Shown: positions 1 through 12,443 of the stretch, piece after piece
Position numbering within the stretch: position 1 is the first letter of the stretch
Layout: the number at the start of each line of letters is the position of its first letter
Assembly (NCBI GenBank): GCA_023269245.1
Contig: JAHFMB010000020.1
Coordinates: 1-12,443, forward strand
Length of the DNA: 12,443 nt
Source of the DNA: Candidatus Tayloriibacteriota bacterium
GTDB lineage: Bacteria; Patescibacteriota; Minisyncoccia; Phycocordibacterales; PALSA-1337
Reading direction: 5' to 3'
Translations under genes and position numbers: made by a program
The notes under the pieces: model-generated
What the model saw: the letters and a program-made list of their open reading frames with translations, nothing else
Databases searched by the model: none
What the model was told of the DNA's origin: nothing

Positions 1-501
1 GGCAGGACATTGCTGACCGAACCGAGAGCGCTCTTGGAACGCGGTGAGAATCAGTATGTAGAGTTCAAGGAAACACTCCGCTATGACACTCGAAAGGGTG
101 AAATAAGCAAGGAAATTGAAAAAATGGTCCTCAAAACAATTGTTGCCTTTCTTAACTCTGAGGGCGGCATGATCTTTATTGGCGTAGATGATGCAGGAAA
201 GGTTATCGGTCTCGAGCGGGACTACAAAGTGCTTACCAAGAAAAATAGAGATGGTTTTGAAAATCATTTGACGATGCTGGTTAAAACTCAGATTGGCTTG
301 CCGTTCACCAAATACGTCAAAACTAGATTCGAAGAAATTGACGGACAGGATATATGTATTGTCTCGGTACGAGAGGCACACAAACCAGCCTATCTTCAAA
401 ATTCCGACAAGAAGGAGGAGTTTTTCGTACGCGTAGGTAACTCGACCCAGCCTTTTTCCATGAGTGAGACCGAGGAATACATCAAGACGAGGTGGAAGTA
501 G
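1..501 (+). CDS. AlbA_2 (Schlafen-type) putative DNA-binding domain protein, 5' end cut
   Basis: The frame is open to the left window edge, so the protein probably begins outside; a TTG at 10 is the first possible start inside, but nothing favours it. The visible ~166 residues form one AlbA_2-type domain. Its hallmarks are an early E-x-x-x-V-E-F-K-E stretch (around nt 46-75), the F-L-N-S-E-G-G core followed by I-F-I-G-V-D-D (about nt 148-192), and a C-terminal F-F-V-R-x-G-N-S-T segment (about nt 421-447). Family members are annotated as putative DNA-binding or ATP-binding transcriptional regulators, and some are fused to other domains upstream; the biochemical role is generally not known. It ends with TAG six bases before the convergent typA stop. 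Domain recognition is fairly sure; the cellular function is not. Confidence 0.8.
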   Translation, partial: GRTLLTEPRALLERGENQYVEFKETLRYDTRKGEISKEIEKMVLKTIVAFLNSEGGMIFIGVDDAGKVIGLERDYKVLTKKNRDGFENHLTMLVKTQIGLPFTKYVKTRFEEIDGQDICIVSVREAHKPAYLQNSDKKEEFFVRVGNSTQPFSMSETEEYIKTRWK

Positions 502-507
502 TCGTCT

Positions 508-2301
508 TTATTTCAGGTCACTTCTTCGTGACCTTGCACGATCGAGCTCTGTCAAGAACTTCTTGCGTAGTCGGACATTCTTCGGAGTAATTTCGAGATA
601 TTCATCTTCACGCATGAGCTCGAGGCCGCGCTCAATAGAAAGTTCGAATGGGGGCACCAACATCAGGGCCTCATCCTTTCCTGATGAACGCATATTGCTC
701 ATAGCCTTTCCTTTGCATGGATTTACGTCCATATCATCACCTTTTGCCGTATCACCGACGACCATGCCCTCATATACTTCAACTGCGGGACCAATGAAGA
801 GGCGACCACGATCTTGGAGGTTCCAGAGAGAAAAACCAAGTGATTTGCCGGTGGCCATAGAGGTCATCGAACCGGTCTCACGCTTTTCGATCTCGCCTGC
901 ATATGGCTTGAATCCAATCACGCGTGAGGACATAATACCTTCACCTTTAGTGTCGATAATAAATGCATTTTTATAACCAAGAAGGCCACGTGTAGGAATT
1001 TCGAAAACCAAGCGCACTTGGTTGCTATGGGTGCTCATGTTACTCATGATACCTTTACGTTTACCAAGAGTTTCAATGATGGTGCCTGAATATTCTTGCG
1101 GACAGTCAATGATGAGCTCTTCAAACGGCTCGAGCTTTTCACCGCCTTCTTCCTTAAAAATAACCTTCGGCTGTGAGACTTGAAGCTCGAATCCTTCACG
1201 GCGCATGTTTTCAACGAGAATGGCAATATGGAGTTCACCACGTCCGTAGACAGTGAAGAATTCGTTTGAAGTAAAATCAACCTTGAGTCCGACATTGGTC
1301 TCAAGTTCACGTTCAAGGCGTTCACGGATCTGGCGCCCTGTTACGAATGTTCCTTCACGGCCGGCGAATGGGGAATTGTTCACCAAAAACTGCAAGGAAA
1401 TGGTTGGTTCATCAACTTTGATGGCAGGAAGAGCCGCGGTTGCTTCATTGTCAGCAATGGTTTCTCCAATATAAATATCTGGCATACCAGCAACGGTTAC
1501 AATATCTCCTGATTCTGCTTCCTTGACCTCGATACGCTTTTTTCCGTCAAAGGTGAAGAGTTTGGTGATCTTGCCGGTAAATGTTTTGCCGTTGATATCT
1601 TTGACCCAGACATTCTGACCATCCTTGATTGTTCCACTATAAATACGGCAGACAGCAAGACGTCCGAGGAAGTTGTCGTACCCAAGATTGAACACTTGGG
1701 CAGTCAGTGGGTCGCCGGCATTTTTCTTGGCATTGGCTGGTGGAACATGTTCGATAATCATGTCCAACAGTGGCGTCAGATCTTTCGCTTCATCAGCAAG
1801 TTTCTTTTTTGCGACGCCCTGACGTCCGATAGCGTAAATGGTAGGGAAGTCGAGCTGCTCATTATTGGCACCGAGTTCCATAAATAGCCCCAGTACTTCA
1901 TCATGGGCGCGCGTTGGGTTTGCGGCTGGCTTGTCGATCTTGTTGAGCACGAGAATCGGCTTGATGCCAAGCTCAAGAGACTTTTTCAATACAAAACGAG
2001 TCTGTGGCATCGGACCTTCTTGCGCATCAACGACAAGGAGAACAGTGTCGATGGAGCGAAGGACGCGTTCGACTTCGGAACCGAAATCAGCGTGGCCTGG
2101 CGTGTCAACAATGTTAATTTTGGTGCCTTTGTAAGTGATAGAGGTATTTTTTGCGTAAATGGTAATACCACGCTCCTGTTCGAGTGCGTTTGAGTCCATT
2201 GAACCTTCGTCGCCGTGGCCACATTGGGCCATGATCGCATCGGTGAGGGTTGTTTTGCCATGGTCAACGTGCGCGATAATGGCGATGTTTCGGATATCCA
2301 T
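508..2301 (-). CDS. typA: Translational GTPase TypA/BipA
   Basis: A ribosome-binding GTPase of the EF-G/LepA superfamily that helps ribosome assembly and growth under stress. The protein is 597 aa, normal for the family. Visible motifs are G1 A-H-V-D-H-G-K-T (residues 10-17), G2 G-I-T-I (45-48), G3 D-T-P-G-H (66-70) and G4 N-K-I-D (120-123). Downstream comes the typical N-N-S-P-F-A-G-R-E-G stretch, then the EF-G-like domains and the BipA-specific C-terminal domain (G-R-L-F-I-G-P, L-T-P-K-like end). The G5 region reads Y-A-I-G-R-Q-G where most homologues have Y-A-S-A. The ATG at 2301 is chosen over an in-frame TTG at 2331 because it gives the family N-terminus and because the promoter would place the RNA start near 2325, downstream of the TTG. 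No Shine-Dalgarno is visible. It converges with the AlbA_2 gene. Confidence 0.97.
   Translation of the reverse strand: MDIRNIAIIAHVDHGKTTLTDAIMAQCGHGDEGSMDSNALEQERGITIYAKNTSITYKGTKINIVDTPGHADFGSEVERVLRSIDTVLLVVDAQEGPMPQTRFVLKKSLELGIKPILVLNKIDKPAANPTRAHDEVLGLFMELGANNEQLDFPTIYAIGRQGVAKKKLADEAKDLTPLLDMIIEHVPPANAKKNAGDPLTAQVFNLGYDNFLGRLAVCRIYSGTIKDGQNVWVKDINGKTFTGKITKLFTFDGKKRIEVKEAESGDIVTVAGMPDIYIGETIADNEATAALPAIKVDEPTISLQFLVNNSPFAGREGTFVTGRQIRERLERELETNVGLKVDFTSNEFFTVYGRGELHIAILVENMRREGFELQVSQPKVIFKEEGGEKLEPFEELIIDCPQEYSGTIIETLGKRKGIMSNMSTHSNQVRLVFEIPTRGLLGYKNAFIIDTKGEGIMSSRVIGFKPYAGEIEKRETGSMTSMATGKSLGFSLWNLQDRGRLFIGPAVEVYEGMVVGDTAKGDDMDVNPCKGKAMSNMRSSGKDEALMLVPPFELSIERGLELMREDEYLEITPKNVRLRKKFLTELDRARSRRSDLK
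515..534. other. Hairpin between convergent gene ends
   Basis: A perfect 7-bp inverted repeat, AGGTCAC and GTGACCT, encloses a 6-base loop. It lies inside the last codons of typA and just beyond the AlbA_2 gene stop. There is no clear T-run after it on either strand, so it is at best a weak bidirectional terminator or a transcript end stabiliser. It could also be a chance product of the charged Arg-Arg-Ser-Asp C-terminal codons. Confidence 0.3.
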
Positions 2302-2331
2302 AGGGGAAAGATAAATAGGGAATGAGCCCAA

Positions 2332-2360
2332 AGTTTACATTATTTGAACATATTTGTCAA
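2332..2360 (-). promoter_or_regulatory. Sigma70-type promoter of typA
   Basis: Reading the minus strand, TTGACA (2360-2355) is followed after exactly 17 bases by TAAACT (2337-2332). The predicted RNA start is near 2325, giving a leader of about 24 nt before the ATG at 2301. This excludes the upstream TTG at 2331 as a start. The -35 is a perfect consensus, so this should be a strong constitutive promoter. Confidence 0.75.
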
Positions 2361-2369
2361 AATCTCGGT

Positions 2370-2403
2370 AAATAAAACGCCCAACCAGTGGGAACCGGTT
2401 GGG
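2370..2403 (-). terminator. Rho-independent terminator of the kinase-like gene
   Basis: On the minus strand a 7-bp stem, CCCAACC with GGTTGGG, and a 10-base loop is followed by CG and then TTTTATTT. It starts 38 bases after the stop codon of the kinase-like gene and lies directly upstream of the typA -35 box. It therefore separates the two same-strand genes. A second small hairpin, GAGCC/GGCTC at 2410-2422, precedes it. Confidence 0.75.
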
Positions 2404-2441
2404 TTGTTTGAGCCTATGGCTCACGCACGGATTGGAGAAGG

Positions 2442-3266
2442 TCAGGTGGCCAGTGCGAATCGGTGCTGGCCTGATGACTCGCGGGGCGGAACCGGACTGG
2501 TTTCGTACACCTCGAGACGATGCGTGCTGGCTGCCGGCACGGTTGAGTGAGCGGCGTGGGCAACCTTCGCGACAGGTTTGGGAGATTTATCGAGTTCCTC
2601 GATGGCGATGCAGGCCTTGTGATCGCGGGTCTTGATGCGACGCAGCATCTTGGCCTTGACGTTTTCCGGCAGTTGCACGATTCCGATACAGGTCACGATG
2701 GAATCGCGCAAGGTGAGCCGAAAACTGATCTCGTGGTAGCGCGGACACAGCTTGAGTGCCGGAATGGTGAGATGCTGGTAGTCAGTCCATCCCCGTTCGA
2801 GTTTTTCCGTTGACATCGAGTCGGGACGCAGATCGCCAGCTTCGAGGCGGCGTTTGACGCCAAGATACATGTTGCCTTTGTCGCCGATGATGTGGATGAC
2901 GGTCACGCGAATTCCGCATTGATTCAAACAGCGAGCCTCCTCTACGGTGCGCATGCCGCCAGTCAGGATCAGATGTTCGGTCTGACGACCATCTTGGCGG
3001 TCGAGCATGGCGAGGTATTTCATCGTCATGGTGTAAATCAGGCGGCCGTCGGGAATGACCCCGCCGTCGTCCATGAGTGCGCGGTATTGCTGCAATTGTC
3101 GGCCAATGTCAGTTTCGGGACGTGCAAGGTAGTACTTGATTGCGTCACTCATGTCCACCAGCCGCACCTTCGTATTGTTGTTCAGTGCCTGCAGGAGGAT
3201 TTTGCCTTTTTTGGTCTTTCCGCAACAGCGGAAGCCGGTAATCACCGTTATGTCGTTCAGCATCAT
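2442..3266 (-). CDS. Adenylate-kinase-like P-loop NTPase (divergent nucleotide kinase)
   Basis: A 274-aa protein. The fold is read from an N-terminal Walker A G-F-R-C-C-G-K-T (residues 11-18), an NMP-site-like segment ending G-G-V-I-P-D (68-73, compare G-x-L-V-P-D in adenylate kinase), and G-G-M-R-T-V-E-E-A (103-111), matching the G-F-P-R-T-x-x-Q-A motif with its NMP-binding Arg at 106. An Arg-rich helical stretch follows (139-170), resembling the lid and R-L-x-x-Y core. The role would be phosphoryl transfer to a nucleotide or similar small molecule, but the substrate is unknown and the P-loop departs from the usual G-x-P-G-S-G-K-G. Residues ~196-274 form an extra basic, then Ala/Ser/Pro-rich tail not found in adenylate kinases. 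The ATG at 3266 (or 3263) is preferred because the predicted promoter lies downstream of the earlier in-frame TTG at 3365. The gene has its own promoter and terminator. Its 3' end is visibly GC-rich compared with the neighbouring pilus genes, a possible sign of transfer. Confidence 0.7.
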   Translation of the reverse strand: MMLNDITVITGFRCCGKTKKGKILLQALNNNTKVRLVDMSDAIKYYLARPETDIGRQLQQYRALMDDGGVIPDGRLIYTMTMKYLAMLDRQDGRQTEHLILTGGMRTVEEARCLNQCGIRVTVIHIIGDKGNMYLGVKRRLEAGDLRPDSMSTEKLERGWTDYQHLTIPALKLCPRYHEISFRLTLRDSIVTCIGIVQLPENVKAKMLRRIKTRDHKACIAIEELDKSPKPVAKVAHAAHSTVPAASTHRLEVYETSPVPPRESSGQHRFALAT

Positions 3267-3296
3267 AAATGATGTCGTTTGCCTTTGGTTCGTGTA

Positions 3297-3324
3297 TTTA
3301 TACAGGCTGAAAATGCCTTTCCAA
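3297..3324 (-). promoter_or_regulatory. Likely promoter of the kinase-like gene
   Basis: On the minus strand, TTGGAA (3324-3319), a 16-base spacer and TATAAA (3302-3297), followed by T. The RNA would start near 3290, leaving a leader of about 24 nt before the ATG at 3266. This argues against the in-frame TTG at 3365 as the start. Confidence 0.5.
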
Positions 3325-3421
3325 TCCTTTTTTCTGGGAAGAACAGCCGGGAAATATACTACCACATATTCAAATCTTCAGCAAATCTTTACCATGTCTT
3401 CAGTGATTCTCCAGTTGGTCC

Positions 3422-3430
3422 TGATATGGT
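3422..3430 (+). promoter_or_regulatory. Possible extended -10 element of the pilus operon
   Basis: TGATATGGT fits the extended -10 pattern TGnTATnnT and ends six bases before the ATG at 3437. This is the same spacing as the better element in front of scpB (8616-8624). No convincing -35 is seen. If real, the operon messenger would be leaderless, which fits the absence of a Shine-Dalgarno. Confidence 0.35.
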
Positions 3431-3436
3431 GGTTGT

Positions 3437-4543
3437 ATGACAACAGGATTTCCATCGCATATAACAACTGCAGTTGAAGCAATTGATACTATTATTTCTT
3501 TTGCTATACATAGCAGAGCCTCTGATATTCACTATGATCCTCAACGTTCGGACTCCTGCGTACGGTTCCGTATAGATGGATGCGTTGTAGTGGCGGGGTA
3601 TGTACCTCGTCGGTTTCATGATGAGGTGATTGCACGGCTCAAAATACTATCAGGCGCTCGAACTGACTTACATGCCATTCCACAGGATGGTAGATGGACC
3701 TATGACGCAGATGGTTCACCCTACCAGATGCGCATTTCGTTTATGCCTTCATATCATGGGGAAAATGCGGTAATCCGTATTCTTCCGACTATTATCGATA
3801 GTGATATATCGTTTGCACGTCTCGGTTTTACGCCGGACCATGTGCGGAGTATTGATGCCGCATTGCACAAGACTTCAGGCATGATACTGGTGACCGGACC
3901 TACAGGTTCAGGGAAGACGACGACACTTCATGCTTGCCTGACACTCAAGGCCCGCGAGCCTCTTTCCATCATCACATTGGAGGACCCGGTTGAATATGAG
4001 GTTCCATCAGTGAGACAGATTCATATTCGGCACAATTATGGCGTGACTTTTGCATCGGGTTTGAGATCGGCGTTGCGTCAGGATCCTGATGTGATTATGG
4101 TCGGTGAAATACGTGATGCTGATACTGCCAAGGTAGCGATACATACCGCATTAACTGGCCACCTCGTCTTATCGACGCTTCATACAAATTCCGCACTCGA
4201 AGCCATTCCTCGCCTCACAGATATGGGGGTTGATCATTACTTACTGGCATCTACGATACGATGTGTCATAGCGCAAAGACTGGTGAGGATTATGTGTCAA
4301 GCATGTGGTTCGTCGGGATGTGACGAATGTGGTAATACCGGATATCGTGGTCGGTCAGTTATTGCCGAAGTGTGTGAGGTTGATGATGGCATGAAGCGTC
4401 TTATCTCAGAACGGGCGTCCATATCAAAGCTTGTTGATTACGCATGTACCAATGGATTCAATCCGATTAGTGATGATGGTAATGAAAAAGTTGAATGGGG
4501 AATTACCACTCCAGAAGAAGTAACCAGAGTACTCTATGAATAA
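3437..4543 (+). CDS. Type IV pilus / type II secretion ATPase (GspE/PilB/PilT family)
   Basis: A cytoplasmic hexameric ATPase that would power pilus or pseudopilus assembly through the platform protein encoded next. In 368 aa it shows an N2-like domain (about 1-125, with A-S-D-I-H at 28-32), Walker A G-P-T-G-S-G-K-T (154-161), the Asp box around L-E-D-P-V-E-Y (181-187), Walker B D-P-D-V-I-M-V-G-E-I-R-D (216-227, catalytic Glu224) and the His box T-G-H-L-V-L-S-T-L-H-T-N (240-251). A zinc-type tetracysteine follows (C287, C290, C295, C298), then T-G-Y-R-G-R. The cysteines mark it as GspE/PilB-like rather than PilT-like, yet it lacks the ~150-residue N-terminal domain of PilB and the loop between the cysteine pairs is very short. 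Its end overlaps the next gene by 8 bases, so translation is probably coupled. Confidence 0.92.
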   Translation: MTTGFPSHITTAVEAIDTIISFAIHSRASDIHYDPQRSDSCVRFRIDGCVVVAGYVPRRFHDEVIARLKILSGARTDLHAIPQDGRWTYDADGSPYQMRISFMPSYHGENAVIRILPTIIDSDISFARLGFTPDHVRSIDAALHKTSGMILVTGPTGSGKTTTLHACLTLKAREPLSIITLEDPVEYEVPSVRQIHIRHNYGVTFASGLRSALRQDPDVIMVGEIRDADTAKVAIHTALTGHLVLSTLHTNSALEAIPRLTDMGVDHYLLASTIRCVIAQRLVRIMCQACGSSGCDECGNTGYRGRSVIAEVCEVDDGMKRLISERASISKLVDYACTNGFNPISDDGNEKVEWGITTPEEVTRVLYE

Positions 4544-5570
4544 AAAAGACGTTATTTTAACGCTCGAACGCCTCGAGCTCTATATGTCAGCCGGTATGCC
4601 ACTGGATCGGGCCATGGTCCTTATAGGGGAAGGGGGTACACGAAAGCATCGGGCAATCATCAAAAGTATTGTTGATGACGTGATTTCTGGTCGGTTACTG
4701 TCTTCGTCGCTTGAAAAACATTTGAGGATATCACCAACTTTAGCTGGTTTAATCCAGCATGGTGAATCATCCGGAGAACTTATTAGATCATTGTGCATTA
4801 GTCGTACCATGATTGAAAAACAACAGGATATGCTAAAGAAATGCACATCGGCTCTGGTGTATCCGGTTGTCATAGGTATATTCGCGCTGCTCCTCACAGT
4901 TGGTCTTGTTCGTGGCGTATTACCTCAGATAACGCCCATGCTCAGAGGTCTTCATGTCAATCTACCGTTATTGACTCGGGTGGTTATTTCTACTTCCGAA
5001 CATCTGGTTTCGTACGGGCTATACATGCTCGGCGGAGCGGTCACGGGGTTGTTTGTGTTCATTGTATTGTATTCCCGAGTGCGCCGGTATAAGTACCTCT
5101 GTCAGTATCTACTTATTCATATACCCATTGTTGGGCACGCACTATTTTCCTACTCACTGTCATTATTTCTCCAATCATTTGGGTCTCTTGTTGAGTCGGG
5201 TTTACCTGTGTCGCCATCGTACACGAAGACCGTTAGAACTGTTTCTTTGTTACCTCTCCAAGACATGCTTCACGGCAAGGCTTTAGATATCGAGAAGGGG
5301 ATTTCGTGCGGCACGGTACTGGCAAACATATCGGCTAAGATTCCTCATCATGTCCCAGCGTTACTATCTGCTGGAGAGGCGTCGGGAACCCTTGGGTCTT
5401 CGCTTACCCGTGCCGCTTCAATCCTTGATCGTGACATAGACCATGCTCTCAAACGCATAACGTCACTTATAGAGCCGGTCATGATGGTTGGGATGGGGTG
5501 TTCTGTTGGAAGCATCGCATTATCAATAATGATGCCGATATATGACATATCAAAAGCATTACAACATTGA
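4536..5570 (+). CDS. pilC: PilC/GspF-type inner-membrane platform protein
   Basis: Polytopic protein that links the cytoplasmic ATPase to the growing pilus. It is 344 aa, somewhat short for the ~400-aa family. Two T2SSF repeats are visible. The first has Y-M-S-A-G-M-P-L (residues 17-24) and G-E-S-S-G-E-L (76-82), then a long hydrophobic segment starting V-Y-P-V-V-I-G. The second has F-G-S-L-V-E-S-G-L-P-V and later G-E-A-S-G-T-L-G, then a terminal membrane segment ending in M-M-P-I-Y-D. A middle membrane helix lies near Y-M-L-G-G-A-V-T-G-L-F-V-F. The ATG overlaps the ATPase gene by 8 bases and the end overlaps the next gene by 29 bases, indicating one operon. Family assignment is firm; whether the machine is a type IV pilus or a related secretion or competence system is inference. 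Confidence 0.9.
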   Translation: MNKKDVILTLERLELYMSAGMPLDRAMVLIGEGGTRKHRAIIKSIVDDVISGRLLSSSLEKHLRISPTLAGLIQHGESSGELIRSLCISRTMIEKQQDMLKKCTSALVYPVVIGIFALLLTVGLVRGVLPQITPMLRGLHVNLPLLTRVVISTSEHLVSYGLYMLGGAVTGLFVFIVLYSRVRRYKYLCQYLLIHIPIVGHALFSYSLSLFLQSFGSLVESGLPVSPSYTKTVRTVSLLPLQDMLHGKALDIEKGISCGTVLANISAKIPHHVPALLSAGEASGTLGSSLTRAASILDRDIDHALKRITSLIEPVMMVGMGCSVGSIALSIMMPIYDISKALQH

Positions 5571-7035
5571 TGTTGGCATACAGTATCGTAGCGGGTTGAT
5601 ATTGGCTGATATTATGGTCGCTATTTCCTTGGGTGCACTCTTTGTAATAACGATTACACAGACATTTCAGAGTTCCCGTGAGGTGTTCGAATACGCGCAC
5701 GAGCGCAATCGATTGATGAATGTTTATGAGGTCCACGAGAATGCATTTCGAGACATGAAGTTGTATGAATCACGAACAACGACACTTAACTCTGATGATG
5801 TTGGATACCAGCGATATTCAACTACAACCATTGAAGCTTATGCTCATTGGTATGGCAACGATCGTATCCAAACAGACATGCATGTATTTTCAGACACCGG
5901 TTCGATACATTTCGTGAACATTCGATCGAATCCGTTTACTATGAGTGATGAGGTGGCTGGCACTGCTTTATGTTCAGTTGATTTTACTAGTGGAAGCATT
6001 GTTGGGTCATTTGGTTACGGTCAAGCAACAAAGCCAGATCCACAGATACTTGTCCCACACATTACCCCGATTACTTTGCCCCTTGATCCATCCATACCGC
6101 TTACTCATATCGAAGTTCGTTCCGGAATTGCGTATATATCGACGGATTCGTCGCGCCAGTCTGATCCTGACGTTCTTATTTTTGATATGCACGATGCTAC
6201 ACATCCTCTTTTGCTGTCCGGTATCCATACTGGGCCGGGCATTTCAGAAATTTCTGTCGTTGGAAATAGAATTTTTTCAGCTGTCACGAGTCGCACTGCC
6301 CAGTTACAAAGCATACATTTGCAAGATCTCAATACTATGTCTATTGAGTCAAGCTACAAACTCCCACTGCCATATGCATCCGCCACACCGCCACTCGGCA
6401 GTTCTCTCTTCTATGACCGCGGATTTGTTTATTTGGGTACGGATAAATGGGATGGAGACGAATTTTCTGTCATCCAAGTTTCGAACCCAGCGATGCCACT
6501 AAAGATAAGTGGTATTGAAATAGGTAGCAAAGTACATGCAATATATGTCCGGGATGGTTTCGCCTATGTTGCTGCCTCAGATCAAAAGCAATTACACATC
6601 ATCGATGTACATGACCCGAGCCGACCATTTCTAGTTGATTTCTTTAGTCCCTCAGGGTGGGAACGTCAAGAAGGGAAGTCCCTATCTTTTTTTGAAGGAG
6701 AGCTTCAGTTCGGTAGGACCTCGGGTGGATTCAATATAAAACAGGATCGCGAACTTTTTGCGTTGAGTAGTTCGACCTTACCTTATGTTCAGCATTCCAA
6801 TGACTATTCAGCGGATCTCGCTGGGGGTGTGTACGGAATTATTTCAGATAGGTCTTTCCTGTATGCAATTAGTAGACAGGGCGGACAAGAATTTCAGATA
6901 TACGATCGCACTTTAGCAACAACTACGGTCACATATATCCAGCTTCCTTCAGTTCCACAGAGCTTATCATGTGATAGTGATTCGCTCTACGTATTGAGTG
7001 CCTCATCGCCAGTTGTATATCACATACAATTTTAA
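5542..7035 (+). CDS. Prepilin-like protein fused to an LVIVD-type seven-repeat beta-propeller
   Basis: 497 aa in two parts. Residues 1-18 look like a prepilin leader ending R-S-G, followed by the hydrophobic helix L-I-L-A-D-I-M-V-A-I-S-L-G (19-31). The residue at +5 after the predicted cleavage site is Asp23 where most pilins have Glu. Residues ~45-185 resemble a minor-pilin body. From ~186 to the end, seven related units of 43-52 residues begin near 189, 233, 285, 331, 378, 427 and 470. The clearest is 331-372, with G-F-A-Y-V-A-A and then I-I-D-V-H-D-P-S-R-P, the LVIVD pattern of a beta-propeller. By inference this is a minor pilin or tip protein displaying a ligand-binding propeller outside the cell. 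The ATG at 5542, inside the end of pilC, is the only start that retains the leader. No Shine-Dalgarno is seen. No Glu5 and no prepilin peptidase gene nearby are reasons for caution. Confidence 0.72.
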   Translation: MTYQKHYNIDVGIQYRSGLILADIMVAISLGALFVITITQTFQSSREVFEYAHERNRLMNVYEVHENAFRDMKLYESRTTTLNSDDVGYQRYSTTTIEAYAHWYGNDRIQTDMHVFSDTGSIHFVNIRSNPFTMSDEVAGTALCSVDFTSGSIVGSFGYGQATKPDPQILVPHITPITLPLDPSIPLTHIEVRSGIAYISTDSSRQSDPDVLIFDMHDATHPLLLSGIHTGPGISEISVVGNRIFSAVTSRTAQLQSIHLQDLNTMSIESSYKLPLPYASATPPLGSSLFYDRGFVYLGTDKWDGDEFSVIQVSNPAMPLKISGIEIGSKVHAIYVRDGFAYVAASDQKQLHIIDVHDPSRPFLVDFFSPSGWERQEGKSLSFFEGELQFGRTSGGFNIKQDRELFALSSSTLPYVQHSNDYSADLAGGVYGIISDRSFLYAISRQGGQEFQIYDRTLATTTVTYIQLPSVPQSLSCDSDSLYVLSASSPVVYHIQF

Positions 7036-7046
7036 CTATCAACATC

Positions 7047-7442
7047 ATGAAGCATAAACAGCATGTAAATTTTGGGATGACCCTCATTGAAGCACTTATT
7101 TTCAGCGTGCTACTTTCCATACTTATCACATCCTCAATCTCATATCTGTACAACATTCATATTAGTAATACAAAACTTATGGATGAGGTGAGGGAAGCTG
7201 AGAGCGGATTTATTGCTACTACAGCCATTGTACTACTCGCAATCGGATCATTGTTTTTCCTGGCGGTGACCATGTCTGCAGTAACGTTATATGCCGACAG
7301 TATTGATCATAGAGAAATGCGCATACAACGCCGACTCAATGAGAATGCGTGCGTCGAGACACGGTCACTGATCATGGCCAAAGATTACTTCTTCAGGGAT
7401 TCAATTCAATTGAAAGATTTTGGCTGCGATATTACCAGATGA
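7047..7442 (+). CDS. Pilin-like protein with two tandem prepilin-like segments
   Basis: 131 aa. It starts with a classical class III prepilin signal: short basic leader, Gly10, then M-T-L-I-E-A-L-I (11-18, Glu15 at +5) and a membrane helix to about 33. After a short linker, a second similar unit begins at E-S-G-F-I-A-T-T-A-I-V (52-62) with another membrane helix (about 55-78). A charged C-terminal part follows, with Asp-His-Arg-Glu near 87-90, N-E-N-A-C-V-E-T (98-105) and a late Cys127. The second half could stand alone as a PilX-like minor pilin from an internal ATG at 7179 or GTG at 7188, so the gene may be an in-frame fusion of two neighbouring minor pilin genes. It follows the propeller gene by 11 bases and ends the pilus operon. 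Confidence 0.65.
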   Translation: MKHKQHVNFGMTLIEALIFSVLLSILITSSISYLYNIHISNTKLMDEVREAESGFIATTAIVLLAIGSLFFLAVTMSAVTLYADSIDHREMRIQRRLNENACVETRSLIMAKDYFFRDSIQLKDFGCDITR

Positions 7443-7473
7443 TATCCCGATATTTGATTTTATAAATTAATAG

Positions 7474-7479
7474 TATAAT
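7474..7479 (+). promoter_or_regulatory. Consensus -10 box before the coiled-coil gene
   Basis: A perfect TATAAT in an AT-rich stretch ends 9 bases before the ATG at 7489. No good -35 is present about 17 bases upstream. The predicted RNA start is at or within about 3 bases of the start codon, so the transcript is probably leaderless. It separates the pilus operon from the scpA block. Confidence 0.6.
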
Positions 7480-7488
7480 TACACCCAC

Positions 7489-7878
7489 ATGAGTTACATT
7501 ATAGAACCACACATTCAACGATACATTGACTCTACTGCAGAGGCTGTCACCACTAGTGCAAGTTTAAAATTTCATGCTGATATTGACCTTGCAGCAGAAA
7601 CTGCCGCTGATAACGCGGGTTTGAAATTTCGTGCTGACATGGAGCATGGGCGGGGTCTTATTATTGAAGAGTTTCAGACTCGACTTATGCTTATGGGCGA
7701 GACTATCGATTCAAAAATCCGAGAAACTACTCGTGAGGTTATCAGAGAAGAATGTATGCCTCGATTCGATCTTCTTGAAACAGAAATGTGCACTTTTCGT
7801 GACGAAATGAAGCTGTTACGTAAAGATTCAAACCGGCACCATGTCCGCTTGACCCGTCTCGAACGCGCTGCAGCCTAA
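7489..7878 (+). CDS. Small coiled-coil protein of unknown function
   Basis: 129 aa, not recognised as a named family. It has no membrane segment or signal peptide. It contains an imperfect internal duplication: S-L-K-F-H-A-D-I-D (residues 26-34) and G-L-K-F-R-A-D-M-E (44-52), each preceded by an Ala/Thr-rich helix. From about 60 onward it is strongly helical and charged, with heptad-like spacing (E-T-I-D-S-K-I-R-E-T-T-R-E-V, then F-D-L-L-E-T-E-M and R-L-T-R-L-E-R), consistent with a coiled coil. Its stop is one base before the scpA start, so the two are cotranscribed from the -10 box at 7474. A link to the SMC-ScpAB complex is only suggested by position. Confidence 0.7.
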   Translation: MSYIIEPHIQRYIDSTAEAVTTSASLKFHADIDLAAETAADNAGLKFRADMEHGRGLIIEEFQTRLMLMGETIDSKIRETTREVIREECMPRFDLLETEMCTFRDEMKLLRKDSNRHHVRLTRLERAAA

Positions 7879-7879
7879 T

Positions 7880-8602
7880 ATGTCCTTCACCGTCAAAACT
7901 CAGTCATTTGAAGGTCCGCTCGATTTACTCCTTGATCTTATCGAGAAGCGTAAATTGTTTATCAGCGATATTTCCCTCGCGAAAGTCACGGATGATTTCA
8001 TTGCGCACGTTCGACAATTCGAACATCTACCGATGGGGGAGTCTGCTCATTTCATTCTGGTTGCTTCGACGCTTCTCCTTATAAAATCGAAATCACTTTT
8101 GCCTGAACTTGCACTGACTGAGGAGGAGAAAGGCGATATTCATGACCTTGAGACGCGTCTCAAGATATTCAAACGCATAAAAGAGGCAAGCAAACATGTC
8201 GGCCAGCTTTTTGGTGACCAGATGATTTTTACACAATCTCATACTCGTTCCGTACAGCCGATATTCACGCCGGATCCAACCTTTACATTGGAGAAAGCTC
8301 TTTCGTTACTCAAAGATCTGATTCATCGATTGCCTAAAAAAGAGAATATACCGAAACATGTGGTTGAGAAGGTTATTAGTCTCGAAGATATGATAGGTAA
8401 TCTGACCACGCGTATCACTTCGAGTCTGCGCATGAGCTTCAAACAATTTACCCACGAACACAAAGCCGAGAAGGTGAATGTTATTGTGAGTTTTTTGGCG
8501 ATGCTTGAATTGGTCAAAGAAGGGGTCCTGCAGGTGACTCAGGAAAGGCATTTTGACGATATTGTTATGGAGACAAAGGATGTGGGTGTTCCGAGATATT
8601 AA
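7880..8602 (+). CDS. scpA: Segregation and condensation protein A (kleisin)
   Basis: The kleisin subunit that bridges the SMC dimer heads and binds ScpB for chromosome condensation and segregation. At 240 aa it is of usual length. The N-terminal signature F-E-G-P-L-D-L-L-L-D-L-I (residues 10-21) is intact, followed by the I-S-D-I-S-L-A-K-V-T-D-D-F region and L-L-I-K-S-K-S-L-L-P (66-75). The C-terminal winged-helix part has V-I-V-S-F-L-A-M-L-E-L-V-K-E-G (about 201-215). It starts one base after the coiled-coil gene, without a Shine-Dalgarno, and is followed after 28 bases by scpB. No SMC gene is in the window. Confidence 0.95.
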   Translation: MSFTVKTQSFEGPLDLLLDLIEKRKLFISDISLAKVTDDFIAHVRQFEHLPMGESAHFILVASTLLLIKSKSLLPELALTEEEKGDIHDLETRLKIFKRIKEASKHVGQLFGDQMIFTQSHTRSVQPIFTPDPTFTLEKALSLLKDLIHRLPKKENIPKHVVEKVISLEDMIGNLTTRITSSLRMSFKQFTHEHKAEKVNVIVSFLAMLELVKEGVLQVTQERHFDDIVMETKDVGVPRY

Positions 8603-8615
8603 TTACATGCGAAGC

Positions 8616-8624
8616 TGATATAAT
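8616..8624 (+). promoter_or_regulatory. Extended -10 promoter of scpB
   Basis: TGATATAAT is a perfect extended -10 (TGnTATAAT) and ends exactly six bases before the ATG at 8631. There is no clear -35, which extended -10 promoters can do without. RNA would begin at or next to the start codon, giving a leaderless scpB message in addition to any read-through from scpA. Confidence 0.65.
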
Positions 8625-8630
8625 AAGTAC

Positions 8631-9206
8631 ATGCCCATTTCTCAACAAGTTGAAGCAATCCTGTTTTGGAAAGCCGAACCGGTTTCTATTAAAAAACTAG
8701 CAACTTTGCTTGGTGCTGATGTTGCAACTATTCAACAAGGGCTCGCAGATCTCGAGCAGACCTTGAAAGGCCGTGGCCTCACTCTCGTGCGCACTGACGA
8801 AGAGGTGATGCTTGGCACGGCAAAAGAACTGTCTCCACTCATCGAGCAGCTTACCAAGGACGAATTGAGCCGCGATCTTGGCAAGGCGGGTCTTGAAACG
8901 CTTTCCATTATCCTGTATCAGGGACCAATCTCACGTGCAGATATAGACTATATACGCGGAGTCAACTCGCAATTTATCGTACGCAATTTATTGATTCGTG
9001 GCCTCGTGGAGCGCATCGAAAATCCAAAAGACGCGCGGAGCTTTTTGTACAAGACTACCTTACAACTCCTGTCCCATCTCGGGGTTTCGAAGATTGAGGA
9101 TGTACCTGAATATGAGCAGGTCAGGAGGGACATAGATGGTTTCAAACAATCGCACGCTGAACCTCAACCTACTCAAGATGCAACCAATCAACCAGAGGCC
9201 AATTGA
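8631..9206 (+). CDS. scpB: Segregation and condensation protein B
   Basis: Tandem winged-helix partner of ScpA in the SMC complex. 191 aa. The N-terminal Q-Q-V-E-A-I-L-F (residues 5-12) begins the first winged helix. The second has T-L-S-I-I-L-Y-Q-G-P-I-S-R-A-D-I, then R-G-V-N-S-Q-F-I-V-R-N-L-L-I-R-G-L-V-E (about 107-125), the family hallmark. The usual G-R-P before the L-Y-x-T-T strand is replaced by D-A-R-S-F (about 132-136). The last ~24 residues are a Gln/Pro/Asn-rich tail that shares its DNA with the start of ftsW. It has its own extended -10 box upstream. Confidence 0.94.
   Translation: MPISQQVEAILFWKAEPVSIKKLATLLGADVATIQQGLADLEQTLKGRGLTLVRTDEEVMLGTAKELSPLIEQLTKDELSRDLGKAGLETLSIILYQGPISRADIDYIRGVNSQFIVRNLLIRGLVERIENPKDARSFLYKTTLQLLSHLGVSKIEDVPEYEQVRRDIDGFKQSHAEPQPTQDATNQPEAN
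9123..9128 (+). promoter_or_regulatory. Shine-Dalgarno of ftsW
   Basis: A perfect AGGAGG lies 7 bases before the ATG at 9136, inside scpB coding sequence. It is the only strong ribosome-binding site noticed in the window. It decides the ftsW start, since the alternative ATG at 9178 has none. Confidence 0.75.
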
Positions 9207-10278
9207 CCGTTTTTTTCTGTTATCAGTATCTGCGCTGACAATCGTCGGGTTCATTGTTTTTTTGTCTGCCTCTCTCGGTTTGCTGGCTCAGGATGGTGCA
9301 AACTTCGGTACAGTCGCAATAAAACAGAGCATTAGCTTGGTCATCGGCATTGTCGCCTTTTTTGTGTTTGCCAAGATACGATATCACTACATCCGTAAAC
9401 TTGCTTTTTTTATTCTGCTTGGAGCGATCGCAATCAACTTGCTGTTATTCATTCCCAGCCTGGCGTTCCATCATGGCGGAGCGTCGCGCTGGATTGATCT
9501 AGGCCTTTTCTCTTTTCAGCCGTCTGAATTCCTCAAAATAGCTTTTATCATCTACATGGCCGCCTGGGCACAGTTTGCCAAGGATAAAATTGAAAAAATG
9601 CGCTTTGGTCTCTTTCCATACCTTGTCATTATGGCTATTTTGGGTGGATTGTTATTGGTCCAATCAGATACGGATACTCTCGTCATCATAGGCTTCACCG
9701 GCATCGTCATGCTCATAATCGCTGGCTTACCAATCAGGCATGTAATCGTGGCGGCAGTACTGATGCTCGCCATGGTCGGAGGAGTCATCTGGCTTCGTCC
9801 GTATGCATTAGAGCGCGTGCAGACGTTTCTGGATAGCGGATTGGACGCTCAGGGCGCAGGATATCAAATCAACCAGTCATTGATAGCCATCGGTTCCGGC
9901 CAGTTCAGCGGTCGCGGTTTCGGTCAAAGCGTGCAAAAATTCGGATATCTGCCGGAGCCGATAGGTGACTCCATTTTTGCCGTTGGTGCCGAGGAATTTG
10001 GCTTTGTCGGCACGATTGCATTATTGGCCCTATATCTTATTTTTGCTGTGAGCACGTTTCGCGTCGGCACCCGTTCGCCTGATACGTTTGGAGCGCTCCT
10101 CGCCATTGGCATTGCAGTCCTCATCATTACCGAGTCATTCATGAATATGGCGGCAATGATGGGTATTATTCCGTTGTCAGGCCTGCCATTATTGTTTATT
10201 TCCCATGGCGGCACGGCACTGATTATCGTCTTGGCGGCGAGCGGCATCGTGGCGAATGTGTCGAAGCACGGAAAATAA
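9136..10278 (+). CDS. ftsW: FtsW/RodA-family (SEDS) peptidoglycan polymerase, probably FtsW
   Basis: Polytopic membrane glycosyltransferase that polymerises lipid II with a partner class B PBP, probably at the division septum. 380 aa, about ten hydrophobic segments. Family motifs: S-R-W-I-D-L-G (residues 117-123) followed by F-Q-P-S-E-F-L-K (127-134); Q-S-D-T-D-T (176-181) where most relatives have Q-P-D-x-G-T; and G-Y-Q-I-N-Q-S-L-I-A-I-G-S-G (242-255). The block G-R-G-F-G-Q-S-V-Q-K-F-G-Y-L-P-E-P-I-G-D (259-278) follows, its Asp278 corresponding to the catalytic Asp of SEDS proteins. The S-H-G-G-T-A stretch lies near the C-terminus. The Q-S-x-Q-K-x-x-Y-L-P-E form favours FtsW over RodA. The start at 9136 rests on the AGGAGG at 9123; it overlaps scpB by 71 bases, so the two are translationally linked. 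Confidence 0.9.
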   Translation: MVSNNRTLNLNLLKMQPINQRPIDRFFLLSVSALTIVGFIVFLSASLGLLAQDGANFGTVAIKQSISLVIGIVAFFVFAKIRYHYIRKLAFFILLGAIAINLLLFIPSLAFHHGGASRWIDLGLFSFQPSEFLKIAFIIYMAAWAQFAKDKIEKMRFGLFPYLVIMAILGGLLLVQSDTDTLVIIGFTGIVMLIIAGLPIRHVIVAAVLMLAMVGGVIWLRPYALERVQTFLDSGLDAQGAGYQINQSLIAIGSGQFSGRGFGQSVQKFGYLPEPIGDSIFAVGAEEFGFVGTIALLALYLIFAVSTFRVGTRSPDTFGALLAIGIAVLIITESFMNMAAMMGIIPLSGLPLLFISHGGTALIIVLAASGIVANVSKHGK

Positions 10279-10318
10279 TATATAAAAGCGAGTTATCCAC
10301 ATGTACATTGGTCATGCA

Positions 10319-10347
10319 TTGACAATACCCCCTGGGGGGTATAGACT
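10319..10347 (+). promoter_or_regulatory. Promoter of the csoR-copA operon
   Basis: TTGACA (10319-10324), 17 bases, TAGACT (10342-10347), then six bases to the csoR ATG at 10354. The spacer is almost filled by the CsoR operator. The predicted RNA start falls on the ATG, so csoR is probably translated from a leaderless message. Confidence 0.7.
10325..10342 (+). promoter_or_regulatory. CsoR operator
   Basis: An 8-2-8 inverted repeat, ATACCCCC and GGGGGTAT around TG. GC-tract palindromes with flanking AT are the known operator type of CsoR/RcnR-family repressors. It lies between the -35 and -10 boxes of the csoR promoter, so bound apo-CsoR would block RNA polymerase, and Cu(I) binding would release it. 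Confidence 0.85.
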
Positions 10348-10353
10348 GTCCGC

Positions 10354-10617
10354 ATGCATACATCAACACAGAAAATAATTCGCCGGTTACAAATCATAGA
10401 AGGTCAGGTGCGCGGTCTTCGCGAGATGATCGAAAAAGATGCCTATTGCATCGATATCATCACCCAAAGCTCCGCCGCAAAGCAGGGTCTTTCCAACGTA
10501 GAGGACATGCTCATGGAAGGGCATTTGTCGCACTGCGTGGTCAAACAGATCCAGAGTGGATCCACCAAAAAAGCCATTGGGGAAGTGCTCAAGGTCTACA
10601 AACTCAAGCGCAAATAA
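10354..10617 (+). CDS. csoR: Copper-sensing transcriptional repressor CsoR
   Basis: An 87-aa all-helical DUF156/CsoR-family repressor; such proteins form dimers or tetramers and release DNA on binding Cu(I). The N-terminal helix has the family R-R-L-x-x-I-E-G-Q-V-R-G (residues 10-21). The Cu(I) ligands are Cys32, His57 and Cys61, with the same 25 and 4 residue spacing as Cys36, His61 and Cys65 of the Mycobacterium tuberculosis protein. This separates it from RcnR and FrmR. It should bind the palindrome immediately upstream and so control itself and copA, which starts six bases after its stop. No Shine-Dalgarno is visible, in line with a leaderless start. Confidence 0.95.
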   Translation: MHTSTQKIIRRLQIIEGQVRGLREMIEKDAYCIDIITQSSAAKQGLSNVEDMLMEGHLSHCVVKQIQSGSTKKAIGEVLKVYKLKRK

Positions 10618-10623
10618 TTAGCT

Positions 10624-12443
10624 ATGCATACACCAAAGATATATAAAATAAAGGGTATGCACTGCGCGTCGTGTGCAGGCATTATCGAAAAGACTTTCAA
10701 AAAAACTGATGGGGTGGAGTCTGTGGAAGTCAATTATGGGACCGAAACCGCAAAAGTTACTTTTGATAAGTCAAAAACAAGTCCACAAGATTTATCCCAA
10801 AAAATAGAAAAATTAGGATACTCGTTGATTATTCCAGATTCACATTCAAGTACAGATGAAATGAACATGTCAGCCAACCAACACGCCGTTCATCTTGGTT
10901 TAAGTCAATCAAAACAGGAAAAACTCGCTGAAATTAAAGACATGAAATCAAAAGTCATGTCGGCTATTCCACTGGCGATTATCAGCATTTTTATCATGGG
11001 CTGGGATATTTTGGCGCAATACAATGCCGTGCCGGAAATGACCAATACCGTAAGCGAATTTTTTCATCATCTGTTGCCTATCATGGCAACGTATACGTTG
11101 TTTGTCGTAGGTAGACCGTATCTCCTCGGCTTTTACCGCTTTCTTCGCTATGGCAAAGCCAATATGGACACCCTTATCGGCATTGGTACAACGGCCGCAT
11201 TTCTCTATAGTTTCGCAATTACAGCATTTGAGGATGTACTTCGACCTTTTATCAATGTCGACTACACCTATTATGACGTGACTATTGTAGTTATTACTTT
11301 TATTGCCCTTGGAAAATATCTCGAAGCCAGATCAAAAATAAAGACCGGGGATGCTATTGAAAAACTACTTAACTTGCAGGCAAAAACGGCTCTTGTTATT
11401 CGTGATGGAAAAGAAATTGAAGTTTCAATCAATGACGTGAAGCATGGCGAGTTTATTATTGTGAAGCCAGGCGCGAAAATTCCTGTTGATGGCGTTATTA
11501 CTGAAGGTTTCTCATTTATCGATGAGTCAATGGTGACTGGTGAGCCGATGCCGGTGAAAAAGGAGGTACATTCAACTGTTGTGTCTGGCACACTCAATAC
11601 AACTGGCACGTTTACGTTCAAAGCGACAAAAGTTGGGTCAGAAACATTACTGGCACAGATTATTCATATGGTTGAGGAAGCGCAGGGAAGCAGAGCCCCC
11701 ATTCAGGCATTGGCAGATACAATTTCGAGCATTTTTGTACCGATTGTACTAGTTATTGCTGTTCTTACGTTCGGCGCATGGCTCTTGTTTGGTACCGGAC
11801 CACTTGGTTTTTCACAGGCTCTTTCATGTGGTCTTGTCTCATTTGTCGGCATTCTTGTTATCGCCTGTCCTTGTGCGCTTGGCCTTGCGACACCTACGGC
11901 GATTATAGTTGGTGTAGGGAAGGGTGCTCGCGAGGGCATTCTGATAAAAGACGCAGCGACATTGGAAAAACTTCATAACGTAGATACAGTGATTGTTGAT
12001 AAAACGGGCACAATCACTATAGGCAAACCAACATTAGTAGACATTCAGATCAGTCAACATCCGGACTCCGGACATTCAGATCAAGCCTCGATTACTCAAA
12101 CTGAATTCGTTTCGATTCTTGCATCTCTTGAGAACAAGTCCGAGCATCCAATTGCTCATGCGATAGTTGATTATGCGCAAGAGAAATCAATTGCGATTAC
12201 AGGTGTCGAAAACTTTGAGTCAATTCAAGGAAAAGGGATCAAGGGTTCCATTGCTGGTGTCGAATACTATGTAGGTAACGCCAAGCTTATCTTAGATCAG
12301 GATCTTCTATTGGACATGTCACAGATCGGTGCATTTACTGCGCAAGGTAAGACGCCGGTAATATTGGCAACCAAAGAAAAAGTTCTCGGATTTGTTATGG
12401 TTGCGGATGAAATAAAACCGGCATCAAAACAAGCTGTGTCTGA
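10624..12443 (+). CDS. copA: Copper-exporting P1B-type ATPase CopA, 3' end cut
   Basis: Membrane ATPase that exports Cu(I) from the cytoplasm. 606 codons are present and the frame runs off the window, so the end of the P domain and the last membrane helices are missing. One N-terminal heavy-metal-associated domain carries G-M-H-C-A-S-C (residues 11-17). A linker of about 45 residues, rich in Ser, His and Met, precedes the membrane helices. The actuator loop T-G-E-P is at 305-308, the metal-site C-P-C at 415-417 in membrane helix 6, and the phosphorylated D-K-T-G-T at 459-463. The ATP-binding S-E-H-P at 506-509 and G-K-G-I (536-539) follow. C-P-C with a G-M-x-C-x-x-C domain indicates the copper (CopA) subgroup. 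It begins 6 bases after csoR, so it is cotranscribed with it and copper-induced. Confidence 0.95.
   Translation, partial: MHTPKIYKIKGMHCASCAGIIEKTFKKTDGVESVEVNYGTETAKVTFDKSKTSPQDLSQKIEKLGYSLIIPDSHSSTDEMNMSANQHAVHLGLSQSKQEKLAEIKDMKSKVMSAIPLAIISIFIMGWDILAQYNAVPEMTNTVSEFFHHLLPIMATYTLFVVGRPYLLGFYRFLRYGKANMDTLIGIGTTAAFLYSFAITAFEDVLRPFINVDYTYYDVTIVVITFIALGKYLEARSKIKTGDAIEKLLNLQAKTALVIRDGKEIEVSINDVKHGEFIIVKPGAKIPVDGVITEGFSFIDESMVTGEPMPVKKEVHSTVVSGTLNTTGTFTFKATKVGSETLLAQIIHMVEEAQGSRAPIQALADTISSIFVPIVLVIAVLTFGAWLLFGTGPLGFSQALSCGLVSFVGILVIACPCALGLATPTAIIVGVGKGAREGILIKDAATLEKLHNVDTVIVDKTGTITIGKPTLVDIQISQHPDSGHSDQASITQTEFVSILASLENKSEHPIAHAIVDYAQEKSIAITGVENFESIQGKGIKGSIAGVEYYVGNAKLILDQDLLLDMSQIGAFTAQGKTPVILATKEKVLGFVMVADEIKPASKQAVS

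Follow-up and report, generated by a model that had tools for sequence, protein, structure and literature searches.

A prepilin-like protein with a predicted seven-bladed LVIVD-type propeller, encoded after PilC in a type IV pilus operon of Patescibacteria

We analyzed a stretch of 12,443 nucleotides (the window) from Candidatus Tayloriibacteriota bacterium (GenBank assembly GCA_023269245.1, contig JAHFMB010000020.1, positions 1 to 12,443). In it, an open reading frame (ORF) at 5542-7035 joins a prepilin-like N-terminus to a predicted seven-bladed β-propeller, directly after the genes for a pilus assembly ATPase and the platform protein PilC. We computed the conservation of the leader and helix, predicted the pilin-like and propeller folds, and followed the operon in relatives. 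On balance, we consider it fairly probable that the protein is a minor pilin of the PilV/GspI type whose propeller head stands at the pilus tip and binds an extracellular ligand, in a very small, uncultured bacterium that probably depends on other cells.

A pilin-like module joined to a predicted propeller

A protein search with this ORF returned 201 proteins at E ≤ 1e-3, its own included; among the best 120 of them, 115 span at least 90% of the query. Two alignments were used. A1 has 60 rows, namely the window protein and 59 of the 119 other proteins among those best 120 matches. A2 has 48 rows from the wider family, eight of them from the window and from a set of 31 named loci, found via the propeller's own motifs from 58 pattern matches. 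The features of the protein are as follows.

5542..7035, plus strand: pilin-propeller fusion, 497 amino acids, ATG start; AlphaFold2 predicted local distance difference test (pLDDT) 90.6, predicted template modeling score (pTM) 0.85
5542..5595, plus strand: prepilin-like leader, residues 1-18 (from sequence); at Gly18, 51 of the 60 A1 rows have G and the other 9 a gap
5596..5745, plus strand: N-terminal pilin helix, residues 19-68 (AlphaFold2 helix 20-68); Asp23 is mature position 5
5770..5928, plus strand: four-stranded pilin-like sheet, residues 77-129 (structure models; best VIA rows are minor pseudopilins)
5971..5973, plus strand: Cys144, proposed disulfide partner of Cys477 (conserved pair)
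6058..6075, plus strand: closing strand, residues 173-178 (AlphaFold2), which we assign as the outer strand of blade 7
6100..6225, plus strand: blade 1, residues 187-228 (AlphaFold2)
6238..6357, plus strand: blade 2, residues 233-272 (AlphaFold2)
6397..6516, plus strand: blade 3, residues 286-325 (AlphaFold2)
6532..6645, plus strand: blade 4, residues 331-368 (AlphaFold2), the sole blade above the Pfam LVIVD cut-off
6673..6813, plus strand: blade 5, residues 378-424 (AlphaFold2), with conserved Arg392 inside and conserved Arg375-Gln376 just ahead
6835..6939, plus strand: blade 6, residues 432-466 (AlphaFold2)
6955..7029, plus strand: blade 7, residues 472-496 (AlphaFold2), with Cys477 in the first strand

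The leader comprises 18 residues, Gly18 being the last, and is followed by LILADIMVAISL. The acidic residue at mature position 5 of type IV pilins is canonically Glu. Here this position (residue 23) is Asp in all 60 A1 rows; in A2 it is Glu in 42 of 48 rows and Asp in six, those six being the window and five close loci. With Gly at −1, a hydrophobic helix and an acidic residue at mature position 5, the N-terminus has the features of a type IV pilin leader with a Glu-to-Asp change, bearing out the prepilin-type leader that a first-pass annotation had assigned to this ORF.

Both structure models place four strands (77-129) after helix 20-68, as expected of a pilin fold. When the pilin module was compared with VIA, the best rows were GspI-type minor pseudopilins, with a modest fold match. 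In the AlphaFold2 model, the helix and sheet are followed by the closing strand and by seven four-stranded blades, starting at residues 187, 233, 286, 331, 378, 432 and 472, which are predicted to form a closed β-propeller. The first-pass annotation had proposed such a propeller from seven units near 189, 233, 285, 331, 378, 427 and 470, and these agree with the modeled blades within 5 residues. It had also named two outcomes that would speak against it, a model without a propeller and homologues without conservation upstream of one; the model contains the propeller, and the homologues keep the leader region. A chance repeat was ruled out because the seven units match the seven modeled blades and 60 sequences align over their full length.

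Conservation and probable orientation of the propeller face

The side of a propeller that carries the loops between blades and between the second and third strands usually binds ligands. In A1, these top-side loops showed a mean conservation of 0.658 over 100 positions, against 0.446 over 57 positions on the bottom side; the difference was reached in 0 of 20,000 permutations, in a test that takes residues as independent and with a gapped, low-confidence loop (410-421) pulling the bottom mean down. The propeller has 27 polar or aromatic positions that are fixed in 58 or more of the 60 sequences: 16 on the top, 2 on the bottom and 9 in strands. The residue just ahead of the third strand is Asp210, Gln254, Glu307, Gln350, Glu404 and Glu450 in blades 1 to 6 and Pro490 in blade 7, and the commonest residue at these positions is kept in 53 to 60 of the 60 rows.

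The same measure applied to A2 gave a top side no more conserved than the bottom (0.346 and 0.351), a drop at the top that loop alignment error may explain in part; without seven of the eight window and named-locus rows, the values were 0.340 and 0.377. Glu307 and Arg392 are each kept in 44 of 48 A2 rows. Because A2 lacks the top-bottom difference, we rejected the idea that top-face conservation is merely a generic property of propellers. Our reading of these alignments is that a ligand or partner may be fixed within the subfamily and differ between lineages, with loop alignment error possibly adding to the contrast.

Cys144 and Cys477 are both present in all 60 A1 rows and in 35 of 48 A2 rows; in A2, seven rows have neither and six have the Cys144 column alone. 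Cys477 sits toward the bottom end of its strand. The closing strand, by strand order, starts at the bottom, so the linker arrives there. In the simplest reading of the model, a putative Cys144-Cys477 disulfide, which we consider probable, would hold the linker and pin the pilin module to the propeller bottom, so that the conserved top face would point outward.

The operon and its recurrence in relatives

The propeller-pilin ORF overlaps the end of the PilC ORF by 29 nucleotides and lies within the following neighbors.

3437..4543, plus strand: assembly ATPase, PilB/GspE-like, 368 amino acids (PF00437, 1.3e-104, residues 13-364)
4536..5570, plus strand: inner-membrane platform protein, PilC/GspF-like, 344 amino acids (PF00482, 2.9e-31, two stretches)
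7047..7442, plus strand: one ORF encoding two small prepilins, a mini GspJ/PilW-like protein with a TLIE motif and a GspK/PilX-like protein lacking Glu5 (N_methyl 15.6 bits, under the 21.2 cut-off)

PilC lies just upstream of the propeller pilin in all 31 named loci and the ATPase in 29, the other two contigs beginning within PilC. PilC and the propeller pilin are never more than 294 bases apart there and overlap in 22 of 31, which leaves no room for an H-like gene (about 140-210 residues elsewhere); such a gene is also missing in the window. These loci are annotated as Candidatus Taylorbacteria, Paceibacterota, Parcubacteria, Patescibacteria or simply uncultured bacterium, and the best-scoring one, L002 (Taylorbacteria), has the window's neighbors SLFN, TypA, ScpA, ScpB and FtsW, which points to that group as the window's probable origin. 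Two of the loci, L004 and L011, share one bin (bin-8985) that has two propeller-pilin operons, so some genomes may carry two copies.

We also inspected 40 wider loci (L055-L094), a biased sample with one locus per genome from the same order or phylum, picked near the list tops and mostly with frames of about 430-570 amino acids. Of these loci, 36 have PilC upstream on the same strand, 33 of them no more than 700 bases away, and 32 have the ATPase upstream. No PilC was seen in the other four: the upstream sequence of L084 is limited to 380 bases, and the 3.9-5.6 kilobases ahead of L075, L077 and L088 contain none. The order ATPase-PilC-propeller, whose recurrence in other Patescibacteria the first-pass annotation had put forward as a check, is thus found again in both sets. 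By pattern count, a prepilin with Glu or Asp at position 5 stands between PilC and the propeller pilin in 25 of the 40 wider loci. Downstream, a prepilin starts within 60 bases of the propeller pilin or overlaps it in 33, a GspK/PilX-like start follows further on in 29 (L087 being doubtful), and in some loci a major-pilin-like gene comes next. Relatives thus show the gene order H-I-J-K, and the wider pattern appears to be ATPase, PilC, H-like, propeller pilin in the I position, J-like, K-like and major pilin, where the labels H, J and K rest on gene order and N-termini only.

Across genomes, a profile built from A1 matched in 60 of the 247 genomes from the order and in 65 of the 379 from the phylum, in many cases only over a short stretch of repeats inside a far longer ORF. 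The A2 profile matched in 215 of the 379 phylum genomes at E ≤ 1e-8, a figure that gives no prevalence estimate since many rows are pilin-only or repeat-only. End to end, this 48-protein profile matched in at least 44 of the 379 sampled phylum genomes, own genome included; 19 of the 44 had given profile rows, and two have an ORF of more than 1000 residues. Some phylum-genome ORFs of about 500-1000 residues match the pilin module only (profile about 12-131), which suggests that this kind of pilin carries other heads as well. The K-like ORFs of L080, L082 and L091 are very long (626, 494 and 657 amino acids), so that a head may be present at the K position too, as in PilX2 of the strain TM7x discussed below. 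In L078, a second pilin of 855 residues (4062-6629, minus strand) is encoded between PilC and the propeller pilin; it starts like a prepilin and matches the propeller profile in part.

For the window's ATPase, the best NCBIfam models are GspE and PilB, both under their cut-offs; its T2SSE (PF00437) match starts at residue 13, which leaves no separate N-terminal domain. It is the only T2SSE gene on the contig, which thus lacks a separate retraction ATPase. In the window (7047-7442) and in L002 (9566-9964), a single ORF encodes the J-like and K-like pilins in frame, while the other relatives with a full translation have them in two overlapping frames. The topology of a chain with two pilin-type helices is puzzling, as the second helix would lead inward from the outside. 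An ORF of 307 residues (2442-3365, minus strand) belongs to no clear family and shows weak AAA_14 similarity; among the 31 named loci, only L028 has a similar ORF, at 24% identity.

Elsewhere in the window's genome, contig C72 carries a type IV pilus cluster with PilM/N/O-like proteins, PilB, PilT, PilC, major pilins, a prepilin peptidase and minor pilins, identified by gene sizes, order and N-termini and, for some genes, by Pfam and T2SSE matches. A prepilin peptidase is encoded at L097:2759-3589 (PF06750, 3.2e-28; PF01478, 9.9e-12). A second ATPase-PilC operon lies on C105, where the slot after PilC holds a 596-residue pilin with a CarboxypepD_reg domain (L095, 6355-8145), after which come a pilin of 206 residues and, at the GspK-like position, a protein of 495. 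C98 has an ATPase gene for which no partner was recognized by eye. A pilin on C21 (L128, 1459-2055, minus strand), apart from the operon, is 55% identical to a relative's operon pilin.

Proposed role and alternatives

We infer that prepilin peptidase would cleave the propeller pilin after Gly18, and that the operon's ATPase and PilC would draw its helix into the small complex at the tip from which a type IV pilus is begun, with the GspJ/PilW-like and GspK/PilX-like pilins encoded just downstream as partners. This would place the propeller at the pilus tip, where its outward top face would bind a ligand outside the cell, with a partner or host cell as the most likely carrier. The first-pass annotation had likewise suggested a tip adhesin or receptor. 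A single chain would then perform the job of PilV and a separate propeller protein, PilY1, in other bacteria. The tip location draws only indirect support, from the modest GspI-type fold match of the pilin module and from gene order.

Three results qualify this proposal. Pfam N_methyl (PF07963), a check suggested by the first-pass annotation, gave no match to the ORF at E ≤ 1, which is a weak point, and the ORF was not among the 13 places of a genome-wide N_methyl search; among relatives, 8 of 48 matched (E ≤ 0.01). The AlphaFold2 model shows two modules, and IPR012902, the motif by which a survey defined modular pilins, was checked through Pfam N_methyl alone and was without match. Second, the expected LVIVD repeats (PF08309) were recovered in part: one repeat, 331-365, passed (26.9 bits against a cut-off of 20.2) and the remaining ones stayed under it, which is weaker than hoped; PF08309 matched in 44 of 48 relatives (E ≤ 0.01). 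Third, the conservation of the top loops within the subfamily seems easier to reconcile with a constant ligand or partner than with a host-specific adhesin that diversifies quickly.

This conserved face would also suit a fixed protein partner within the pilus machine. It is possible, though we think it rather unlikely, that the propeller has no ligand outside the cell and primes assembly, as a structural cap that begins or ends the filament and contacts conserved components of the machine. Priming of the pilus by PilY1 together with minor pilins is described for Myxococcus, where they are proposed to remain at its tip and PilY1 is proposed to cork the pilus for retraction (PMC7541494). In the 31 named loci, the propeller pilin is 34-56% identical to the window protein, inside the range for PilC (24-62%), as for a machine part. 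However, a large exposed propeller exceeds the needs of a cap. PilX2 of TM7x is a minor pilin whose RCC1 propeller has seven blades; when it was deleted, the share of host-bound cells fell from about 10.6% to 4.6%, and thin filaments still formed (PMC12206443). The CarboxypepD_reg head after PilC in the genome's second operon likewise fits swappable outward functions.

Binding of DNA by the propeller at the tip of a natural-competence pilus seems improbable. The genome has ComEC (contig C62, 6.2e-50), the window's ATPase matches ComGA over residues 18-284 (240.7 bits against a cut-off of 300, with GspE and PilB scoring higher), and competence genes and pilus transcripts are reported from groundwater ultra-small genomes (PMC9938205). 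Yet pilin mutants of the TM7x PilX2 system showed competence like the wild type, so that this pilus system with its propeller pilin was not needed for it (PMC12206443). The nearly fixed, acidic set ahead of the third strands (Asp, Gln, Glu, Gln, Glu, Glu in blades 1 to 6) also seems ill suited to DNA, and the genome has at least two other ATPase-PilC clusters. We give hardly any credence to a pseudopilus head that acts as a hydrolase or belongs to a type II secretion-like pump: GspI does come from type II secretion, and Glu, Arg, Gln and Trp are invariant on the top face, but no enzyme family was found among the Pfam and NCBIfam matches of the ORF, and to our knowledge an outer-membrane secretin, for which no search was made, is not expected in these cells.

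The ligand-binding minor pilin may be one case of a broader arrangement, which we put forward tentatively and hold to be less likely than the proposal for the window itself. Across Patescibacteria, the pilin after PilC would be a head-bearing PilV, in effect PilV and a PilY1-like propeller merged. Heads (the LVIVD propeller, CarboxypepD_reg and others) would be swapped between lineages and operons while the slot stays. The outer face of the propeller, fixed within a clade and different between clades, would then encode which partner cell a lineage can grip.

Comparison with known systems

By analogy, the nearest tested counterpart is PilX2 of Nanosynbacter lyticus TM7x, like the proposed window protein a patescibacterial minor pilin with a C-terminal seven-bladed propeller (PMC12206443). 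As described in passages of that report, PilX2 has an RCC1-repeat propeller, is encoded in pilin locus three apart from pilB2/pilC2, and is without a predicted PilD signal peptide (PMC12206443), whereas the window protein, compared by description only, has an LVIVD-type propeller, stands right after PilC and has a prepilin-like leader. The ORF had no RCC1 match in Pfam at E ≤ 1. Host recognition and binding by ultrasmall episymbiotic bacteria are said there to be largely unknown (PMC12206443). A conserved tip candidate that gene neighborhood flags could be produced and tested against possible ligands with no need for a culture of the bacterium, and the propeller-pilin subfamilies could be set against the partners already known.

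Modular pilins such as Streptococcus sanguinis PilB resemble the window protein in joining a small pilin module to a bulky C-terminal module, probably at the tip; those surveyed bear vWA or lectin-like modules, and the passages concerned do not name LVIVD propellers on pilins (PMC8179133). GspI-type minor pseudopilins of type II secretion gave the best VIA rows for the pilin module, and in relatives the propeller pilin has their place in an H-I-J-K-like order. LVIVD has been described as a repeat of 42 residues in cell-surface proteins of archaea and bacteria (PMC2447325), and the window protein carries this common repeat class (PF08309) on a pilin. In the open-licence PMC literature, no paper was found that combines LVIVD and pilin, and a search for Patescibacteria, pilin and propeller gave the TM7x paper only. 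An LVIVD propeller on a modular pilin, probably of GspI/PilV type, in many Patescibacteria is thus probably a new variant.

As in our proposal, PilY1 with FimU, PilV, PilW and PilX forms a minor-pilin tip complex that presents a propeller, with roles in priming and adhesion (PMC7541494). No PilY1 domain was among the Pfam matches of the window protein at E ≤ 1, and its N-terminus is prepilin-like. In the window, the propeller lies within the pilin chain itself and belongs to another repeat class, and this fusion suggests an alternative to separate PilV and PilY1 proteins.
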